Source of the DNA: Nocardioidaceae bacterium
GTDB taxonomy: Bacteria > Actinomycetota > Actinomycetes > Propionibacteriales > Nocardioidaceae
Length of the DNA: 64,000 bases
Assembly: GCA_018672315.1 (NCBI GenBank)
Contig: CP076053.1
Span: 1-64,000, forward strand
Reading direction: 5' to 3'
Under the pieces are notes generated by a model. That model was not told the origin of the DNA and did not search any database. It saw nothing but the letters and a program-made list of their open reading frames with translations. This document shows positions 1-1,683 of the stretch, piece by piece. The position numbers were made by a program, and so were the translations under genes. How positions within the stretch are numbered: the first letter of the stretch is position 1; every line of letters starts with the position of its first letter.

Positions 1-1264
1 CCGCGTCCTTGAAGGTCATCCAGCCGTTGCCGGTCTGCGCCAGCGTCTTCATCATCTTCGCGTAGAGCGTGCGGGCGGGAAGCGTACGCACCACGCGTCC
101 CTCCGCCTCGACGCGACGGTAGGCCCGGTCGAAGGCCTCACCCCACAGGTCGACCAGCTCGGGGGCCTCGTCGGGATCGATGAGCGACCAGGGCTCGTCG
201 GCCTCCACCCGGCGCATGAACTCGTCCGGCACCCAGTTGGCGAGGTTGAGGTTGTGCGTACGCCGGGCGTCCTCGCCGGTGTTGTCGCGCAGCTCGAGAA
301 ACTCCTCCACGTCCGGGTGCCACGGCTCGAGGTAGACGCACGCGGCGCCCTTGCGCCGCCCGCCTTGGTTGACCGCGGCGACCGAGGAGTCGAGCGTGCG
401 CAGGAACGGCACGATGCCGTTCGACTGCCCGTTGGTGCCCCGGATCAACGCGCCGCGGGAGCGGACGCGGCTGAACCCGATGCCGATACCGCCGGCGAAC
501 TTCGACAGCTTCGCGACCTGGGCGTACCGGCTGTAGATCGAGTCGAGGTCGTCGCGCGGTGAGTCGATCAGGTAGCAGGACGACATCTGGGTGTGGCGGG
601 TGCCGGAGTTGAACAGCGTCGGGGAGCTCGGCAGGTACGCCAGGCTGGCCATCAGCCGGTAGAACTCGATGGCCTCAGCCGGAGTGCGCGCCAGACCGCA
701 GGCGACCCGCAGCAGGAAGTACTGCGGCGTCTCCACGACCTGGCGGTTGACCGGGTGGCGCAGCAGATAGCGGTCGTAGACGGTGCGCAGACCGAAGTAC
801 TCGAAGCGGTGGTCGGCGCCCGCCGCGACCTCGGCGTCGACGGCGAAGTCGAGCTTGCGGGCGTTGTCCTTGACGAACCTGAACGTCTCGTCGCCGATGA
901 GCCCCTCGGCGTGGCCCAGCCCGATGGACTGGCTGAAGGACGCGATGCCCTGGTTGCGCACCTCCTTCTCGACGTACCCGGCGAGCAACCGGCCGGCCAG
1001 CCGTGAGTAGGCCGGCTCCTCGCCGATCATCTCCGCCGCGGTCTGGATCGAGAGCCGATCGAGCTCAGCGGTGGTGGCGCCGTCGTACAGGCCGGAGATC
1101 GTCCGTGTCGCGACGCGCATCGGGTCGACGTCGTCCAGGTCGCCGGCGACGCGGTCGACCGCGCGGACGATCTTCATCAGGTCGACCGGTTCGAGGTCGC
1201 CGTTGCGTTTGCGCACGCTCATCGAGGTGCGGGTGCTGCCGGGGGTGGGGCTGGTGACCGTCAT
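1..1264 (-). CDS. nrdA: Ribonucleoside-diphosphate reductase, large (alpha) subunit, class I; 3' end beyond the window
   Basis: This is the catalytic subunit that reduces ribonucleotides to deoxyribonucleotides. About 421 N-terminal residues are visible and the rest runs off the left edge. An ATP-cone begins near residue 16 (VRKRNGDLEPVDLMKIV). The barrel domain follows, with the segments YFGLRTVYDRYLLRHP, PTLFNSGT...SSCYLID (redox cysteine), AGGIGIGFSRVR and NQGGRRKGAACVYLEPWH. The ATP-cone and the YDRYLLRHP stretch fit class Ia NrdA rather than the B12-dependent class II NrdJ, though the C-terminus that would settle this is missing. The ATG at 1264 follows GAGGAG with about 5 nt spacing. 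The roughly 370-nt leader carries a cobalamin riboswitch and NrdR boxes, matching the arrangement known for Streptomyces nrdABS. Confidence 0.93.
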   Translation of the reverse strand, partial: MTVTSPTPGSTRTSMSVRKRNGDLEPVDLMKIVRAVDRVAGDLDDVDPMRVATRTISGLYDGATTAELDRLSIQTAAEMIGEEPAYSRLAGRLLAGYVEKEVRNQGIASFSQSIGLGHAEGLIGDETFRFVKDNARKLDFAVDAEVAAGADHRFEYFGLRTVYDRYLLRHPVNRQVVETPQYFLLRVACGLARTPAEAIEFYRLMASLAYLPSSPTLFNSGTRHTQMSSCYLIDSPRDDLDSIYSRYAQVAKLSKFAGGIGIGFSRVRSRGALIRGTNGQSNGIVPFLRTLDSSVAAVNQGGRRKGAACVYLEPWHPDVEEFLELRDNTGEDARRTHNLNLANWVPDEFMRRVEADEPWSLIDPDEAPELVDLWGEAFDRAYRRVEAEGRVVRTLPARTLYAKMMKTLAQTGNGWMTFKDA

Positions 1265-1417: not shown

Positions 1418-1440
1418 CACCGCACCCGGCGGGTGCGGTG
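1418..1440 (-). terminator. Perfect 10-bp hairpin abutting the B12 box (possible expression platform)
   Basis: Arms caccgcaccc and gggtgcggtg pair perfectly around a 3-nt loop, directly downstream (minus-strand sense) of the B12 box. There is no U-tract, so this is not a textbook intrinsic terminator. Its position right after the riboswitch and about 150 nt before the nrdA start suggests it is the regulatory hairpin. That role is inferred. Confidence 0.5.
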
Positions 1441-1630
1441 CGCTGGCAGGTCTTCGGACTCGCGGGCACGACAGGCGTGGCCTGTCCCCTACTGACCGTC
1501 GCTTCCCAGGCCGGTGGCCCAGTGCATGTGACGGCGGTCGTTCCCACTCACCGCTGCGGGGCAGTCCCGGTCTCTCACCGGGTTCCCTCTTGCCTCCCAC
1601 CCGCCCGGGTCGACGGGGAGGAACCAGCTG
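1441..1630 (-). promoter_or_regulatory. Cobalamin (adenosylcobalamin) riboswitch upstream of nrdA
   Basis: Read on the minus strand, the leader contains the conserved core GAACCCGGTGAGAGACCGGG followed by ACTGCCCCGCAGCGGTGA. Further along are a CACTGG...CTGGGAAG segment and finally a clear B12 box, GAGTCCGAAGACCTGCCAGC (1443-1462 region). Order and spacing match the cobalamin riboswitch family. B12-riboswitch control of a class Ia ribonucleotide reductase is established in Streptomyces, where coenzyme B12 shuts the class Ia operon off and the cell relies on class II NrdJ. The same logic is inferred here. Confidence 0.92.
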
Positions 1631-1636
1631 CGTGCA

Positions 1637-1683
1637 CCACCATACATAGCGAATGACAGTGATGTAACCCCAAGATGTTGTGT
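1637..1683 (-). promoter_or_regulatory. Tandem NrdR boxes (1668-1683 and 1637-1652)
   Basis: On the minus strand ACACAACATCTTGGGG (1668-1683) and TCGCTATGTATGGTGG (1637-1652) start exactly 31 bp apart, three helical turns. Both resemble the NrdR consensus acaCwAtATaTwGtgt, with roughly 12/16 and 11/16 matches. NrdR is the (d)ATP-sensing repressor of ribonucleotide reductase operons. The boxes lie just upstream of the riboswitch, where the nrdA promoter should be. Confidence 0.75.

Follow-up and report, generated by a model that had tools for sequence, protein, structure and literature searches.

The leader of the class Ia nrdAB operon in the 64-kb stretch of DNA analysed here (the window, 64,000 nucleotides) quite probably carries two stacked off-switches, one operated by NrdR and one by a B12 riboswitch, and the sequence features of this leader support control of nrdAB by both nucleotide level and B12. 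Upstream of nrdA on the minus strand (ATG at 1264) lie a pair of NrdR boxes, a complete cobalamin aptamer and a perfect 10-bp hairpin. A preliminary description had set these elements out one after another, and while all of them are present the second NrdR box and the aptamer are not separate; the two overlap, as the aptamer match begins within box 2.

The two NrdR boxes, which had been placed 31 bp apart, are found at 1683-1668 (box 1, ACACAACATCTTGGGG) and 1652-1637 (box 2, TCGCTATGTATGGTGG) of the minus strand with exactly this distance between their centres. Scored with a matrix of the box region that was made from relatives and excluded the window, this place reaches 29.4 bits and is the top-scoring one in the 64 kb, the next best on either strand scoring -2.3. 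Against an NrdR consensus the pair scores 18.9, compared with 14.4 at the 99% level and 15.6 at the maximum of 1,880 shuffles of 94 leaders in which base composition alone was kept. The pair is present in 94/94 aptamer-bearing leaders examined (75 from relatives, that of the window and 18 from a draw across the class), in every case above the 99% shuffle level and with a spacing of 30-33 bp, which is 31 or 32 bp in 91 of them. This recurrence beside the aptamer, together with the uniqueness of the pair in the window, makes it highly improbable that the boxes belong to the divergent plus-strand ORF or reflect a chance resemblance in AT-rich promoter sequence, even though an ORF on that strand could start from about 1675 or later. 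That ORF, to which no function was assigned (1675-2313), begins near NrdR box 1 and may share the promoter region.

Box 2 overlaps the hexamer TATGGT (1644-1639), which we presume to be the -10 element of the nrdA promoter. A simple sigma-70 scan returned no promoter at the nrdA leader; in S. lividans the reported -10 has the form TAnnnT (PMC8079986). In S. coelicolor NrdR is described as binding the promoter boxes of nrdAB and nrdRJ with dATP plus ATP (PMC9110341), and binding is reported to be best with whole helical turns between the boxes (PMC12051234).

A full cobalamin riboswitch had also been proposed with the Rfam cobalamin model as the check, and this model (RF00174) matches 1643-1428 of the minus strand over its entire length (model positions 1-189 of 189) with 89.7 bits against a gathering score of 31.5 and an E value of 7.5e-21, the only Rfam match at gathering level within the 64-kb window. 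The match contains the B12-box region (1528-1502) and the L5 region CTGCCCCGCA (1564-1555), the presumed half of a kissing loop, whose pattern was matched in 69 of 75 leaders. In the window L5 is complementary (CCC/GGG) to the downstream L13 loop TCGTGGGAC and the two are on these grounds presumed able to kiss.

Cobalamin riboswitches were seen at a number of other places. A second one, borderline at 31.5 bits and thus equal to the gathering score, lies at G000:C1:333701-333817 (L008 3702-3818, minus strand), where a 583-aa ORF begins that looks secreted and has no Pfam match; the ORF that follows has a sub-threshold PT-repeat match, and by eye both recall B12-capture proteins. Among the relatives, more riboswitches lie within a few kb of nrdA (L017 410-625, L030 7070-7272, L043 737-943, L048 6913-7120 and 1297-1475, L052 6976-7189, L059 2760-2931, L065 7010-7222, L069 2703-2874 and L070 6989-7203) along with partial matches at L042 1825-1899 and L074 7550-7603, which suggests that neighbouring genes are B12-regulated.

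The genome contig is a single piece of 3.60 Mb that begins within nrdA, so that the gene is split between both ends; its 5' part (2-1264, minus strand, 421 aa) carries PF02867, PF00317 and the ATP-cone PF03477, and the nearest named nrdA relatives among the matches listed are from Nocardioides, at 87-88% identity, which makes a member of the Nocardioidaceae likely. It is followed by nrdB (PF00268). In the Streptomyces-type nrdABS operon nrdS comes after nrdAB, whereas here no third gene follows nrdB on the same strand, the long ORF abutting nrdB being on the plus strand. The preliminary description implied that a B12-dependent class II enzyme exists elsewhere in the genome and regarded an nrdR gene as equally necessary, and both were found: nrdR (PF22811, 78.3 bits) at 3206202 and, about 150 bp further on, nrdJ (TIGR02504, 612.8 bits, cut-off 399.95) with the class II N-terminal domain PF08471 and TSCPD. 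CobS is also present, and no class III RNR gene was detected in the genome. A pair of NrdR boxes, again with a spacing of 31 bp, precedes nrdRJ, and when the box regions of nrdA and nrdRJ are aligned without gaps 41 of 75 positions are identical, compared with 29 of 75 in the next best register. A riboswitch on nrdRJ and the nrdJ RNA motif RF03034, which is listed for S. lividans (PMC8079986), were both considered and rejected, there being no match to RF00174 at nrdRJ and none to RF03034 in L006 1200-2200; a search of the latter interval against Rfam with E up to 1 returned only a microRNA family (25.9 bits, cut-off 93) that we take as chance.

That the logic of dual control was already known is borne out by its publication for Propionibacterium acnes nrdAB (PMC3848588), and the interest had therefore been placed in its spread and in the compact stacking of both controls. 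The spread is indeed wide, and the stacking does not set this genome apart: every genome of the class draw in which a class Ia-type NrdA was detected has it. Among the relatives (the best 80 of 586) RF00174 lies just upstream of nrdA in 75 of 80, the exceptions being L019 (a Streptosporangiaceae MAG), L084 and L085 (MAGs labelled bacterium), L087 (a Chloroflexota MAG) and L088 (a Planctomycetota MAG). NrdJ was above its cut-off in 46 of 50 genomes drawn from these 80, comprising 42 of the 45 aptamer-bearing genomes asked and 4 of the 5 aptamer-less ones (it is absent from L087); the aptamer genomes without NrdJ over the cut-off are L012 and L016 (partial second match) and L044 (none), all of them MAGs. 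The class draw was an independent set of 69 genomes in which the window's own genome, with nrdA split over the contig ends, is counted. Class Ia-type NrdA, as assigned by 366-406 bits on the NrdJ model (with G104 just above the NrdJ cut-off), occurs in 19 of the 69, and in 19/19 RF00174 is found on the same strand 481-656 bases upstream of the NrdA match. NrdJ is over the cut-off in 18 of these 19 genomes, and in the remaining one (G076) there is a fragment at a contig end. In another six genomes the NrdJ model scored lower, at 207-230 bits, on what we take to be class Ib NrdE, and no RF00174 lies near these among the matches listed, which are complete for three of the six genomes.

One of the relatives without an aptamer, the actinomycete MAG L019, has nrdA and nrdJ together with an NrdR pair, which lies at most about 75 bases before the start of the NrdA match, and gave no match to RF00174. 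This suggests that NrdR control can persist where the aptamer is missing, and L019 may be a natural case of riboswitch loss. High-scoring NrdR pairs without an aptamer are also present in L087 and L088. The aptamer in our strain might by extension be a relic, or answer to another corrinoid, leaving NrdR control as all that matters. L019 indicates that it may be dispensable in one lineage, and corrinoid riboswitches are described as able to answer to several corrinoids (PMC10653944); however the aptamer is full-length and high-scoring and co-occurs with nrdJ in the class draw, and we consider such a reading improbable beside that of a working B12 switch.

From the aptamer to the start codon the same elements follow one another in the leaders: hairpin H1, hairpin H2 (P13/L13), a pyrimidine-rich strand and a Shine-Dalgarno region, often CTCGCGAGGAGAGAGC. 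Counts for this platform are given for 92 of the 94 leaders, L028 and L092 having no loop pattern and being left out, and at some loci without an assigned reading frame the initiation site rests on the conserved motif. H1 is the perfect hairpin for which the preliminary description offered no explanation, with its 10 perfect pairs at 1440-1418 of the minus strand (CACCGCACCC-GCC-GGGTGCGGTG) between P1 and P13. Across the 92 leaders its median stem is 10 bp compared with 5 in shuffles, 70 of 92 reach at least the 99% shuffle value, and there are 65 distinct 5' arms, a pattern of covariation that is shared with P13. Here the four base pairs of the stem (GGCC-TCGTGGGAC-GGCC at 1411-1395 in the window) are paired in 75, 80, 85 and 86 of 86 distinct rows and both sides have changed in 1, 5, 8 and 1 rows, respectively, that is at least once for each pair. 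The loop reads xCGxGGG in 88 of 92 leaders and xCGxGGA in the remaining four. The equation of H2 with P13/L13 and the role given to L13 follow the riboswitches described in PMC10653944 and PMC11260477. By eye, two further strands, GCCGACG (1397-1391) and CGTCGGC (1327-1321), are complementary and could form a hairpin H3.

Alignment of the platform with MAFFT followed by RNAalifold (74 leaders; L086 and L046 left out) recovered only H1 and P13. Variable insertions pushed the long-range pairs out of register and for this reason we used duplex energies with swapped partners, comparing the pairing of the initiation region of each leader with its own P13-to-Shine-Dalgarno segment and with those of other leaders. 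In the window the initiation region with its Shine-Dalgarno (TCTCGCGAGGAGAGA, 1280-1266), whose CTCGCGAGGAGAGAGC motif recurs, with slight variations, from leader to leader, pairs with the candidate anti-Shine-Dalgarno strand CCTCCCTGCGCGA (1312-1300) at -16.2 kcal/mol, and in the ligand-free ensemble the Shine-Dalgarno core is with the segment holding 1312-1300 at a probability of 0.91, the stability of the leader as a whole being unexceptional (z -1.24). The mean duplex energy over 83 leaders was -19.30 with their own partners compared with -18.06 +/- 0.26 when swapped, and 0 of 5000 swaps were as good. Thinning by similarity, which removes relatedness only in part, gave z values of -4.84 (n=83), -3.62 (n=31) and -2.58 (n=21). 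As controls the initiation region was paired with the coding start, the aptamer stretch and H1, none of which brought a gain comparable to that of the segment; with its own coding start it paired worse than after swapping (z +3.77, +2.43 and +2.22), and H1 gave a slight improvement at n=31 (z -1.40). The swap test thus supports a partner-specific Shine-Dalgarno/anti-Shine-Dalgarno pairing as the predicted OFF state. Folding without ligand gives a mixed picture that speaks less clearly for this pairing: 34 of the 92 leaders have the Shine-Dalgarno core mainly with the expected segment, 32 with sequence farther upstream and 12 mostly unpaired or otherwise engaged.

For the competing pairing the swap test of L13 against the anti-Shine-Dalgarno segment brought no clear gain, with z values of -1.90, -1.12 and -0.89 and with little power as the loop is nearly invariant, and those of L13 against the aptamer stretch (-0.16, -0.91 and -0.67) are not far from them. 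In the window the best partners of L13 lie elsewhere than on the anti-Shine-Dalgarno strand and folding places it with the aptamer (0.93), so that in the modelled ON state L13 could instead pair with the aptamer.

An intrinsic terminator, meaning a G+C-rich hairpin followed by a U-run, was searched for in 1200-1800 and none was found. The perfect hairpin was accordingly rejected as such a terminator; from its sequence it does not look like one and rather resembles a conserved linker hairpin before the P13, anti-Shine-Dalgarno and Shine-Dalgarno elements. The riboswitch could nonetheless work on transcription, with H1 or another structure halting RNA polymerase when B12 is present, either intrinsically without a U-tract or through Rho, and H1 is certainly strong and conserved. 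Borovok and co-workers reportedly described the Streptomyces nrdABS B12 riboswitch in 2006 under a title that speaks of transcription. Much of the P. acnes nrdAB transcription likewise seems to stop short of the gene (PMC3848588). Transcription may therefore be the main level of control, and a B12-enhanced transcript end is reported for M. tuberculosis metE (PMC11260477). Against this stand the lack of any terminator-like site in 1200-1800, the position of H1 before P13 and the partner specificity of the Shine-Dalgarno pairing, which purely transcriptional control would not need, and on balance we find a transcriptional switch rather unlikely, if well worth keeping in mind. The order of the platform elements suggests instead a translational OFF switch like that of M. 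tuberculosis metE.

The two switches would then operate as follows. When deoxynucleotides are plentiful, NrdR loaded with dATP plus ATP would occupy its two boxes three helical turns apart and, with box 2 covering the presumed -10 element, block initiation. The transcript would start almost at the first base of the cobalamin aptamer. With adenosylcobalamin bound, L5 would kiss L13 of the P13 hairpin (1411-1395) and leave the anti-Shine-Dalgarno strand (1312-1300) free for the Shine-Dalgarno of nrdA (1280-1266), so that nrdAB would not be translated and the message would probably also be ended early or degraded. In the absence of B12, L13 is expected to find its partner in the anti-Shine-Dalgarno strand or else in the 3' portion of the aptamer, and NrdAB production would go ahead. 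The cell would in this way use the B12-dependent NrdJ when B12 is present and the oxygen-dependent NrdAB when it is absent, with NrdR limiting both.

What the analysis adds is the spread of the combined arrangement over the sampled actinomycetes, for whose class Ia nrdA control by NrdR (nucleotide level) and by a riboswitch (B12 supply) appears to be the rule, together with a platform that is concrete and testable in that it names the strand expected to hide the ribosome site. Whether translation or transcription is the level of control can be tested directly from the coordinates given. A broader proposal, which we put forward tentatively and on which we would not yet rely, is that the actinomycete nrdA leader forms one conserved unit rather than two controls brought side by side by chance: an NrdR operator merging through its second box into the beginning of the aptamer, then H1, a P13 with a Shine-Dalgarno-mimicking loop, the anti-Shine-Dalgarno strand and finally the Shine-Dalgarno CTCGCGAGGAGAGAGC. 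In this unit L13 would have two alternative partners, the aptamer in a kissing contact and the anti-Shine-Dalgarno strand by capture, and its platform would be a describable subtype of cobalamin riboswitch for nearly all class Ia nrdA of the class. A literature search found no prior description of the nrdA platform; the key Streptomyces papers were outside its reach and we make no claim to priority.

Control of the Streptomyces RNR genes by NrdR was reportedly described by Grinberg and co-workers in 2006. Streptomyces resembles the present case in its class Ia operon, its B12 riboswitch and its NrdR boxes on both nrdAB and nrdRJ about three turns apart (PMC9110341 for the boxes). Four leaders of the class draw taken to be Streptomyces (L095, L096, L099 and L100) keep the NrdR pair, P13 and the Shine-Dalgarno element and differ in a shortened L13 (TCGxGGA) and shorter aptamer matches. 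In P. acnes (Cutibacterium) an nrd-box lies at the nrdAB promoter and a cobalamin riboswitch is annotated in the nrdAB 5' UTR, and nrdRJ, the B12-dependent alternative, has as here a pair of nrd-boxes and, in the available text of the source, no annotated riboswitch (PMC3848588). The same source describes just one nrd-box at nrdAB of P. acnes, and an nrdDG that bears a riboswitch, in contrast to the box pair and the lack of a detected class III gene in our genome.

For the platform the closest parallels are class I B12 riboswitches of other genes. In M. tuberculosis metE the scheme is alike, with an L5-L13 kissing loop, anti- and anti-anti-initiation strands and translational OFF logic, and mutants and reporters support both strands, L13 forming part of the latter (PMC11260477). 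The metE riboswitch differs in controlling methionine synthase, and H1 and the NrdR boxes are features of the nrdA leaders that go unmentioned for metE in the available portion of that paper. In E. coli btuB, which differs in its gene and its platform sequence, kissing of L5 with L13 is described as making P13 more stable and favouring the hairpin that contains the ribosome site (PMC10653944). In both the order of their elements and their predicted OFF pairing, the nrdA leaders fit this metE/btuB scheme.
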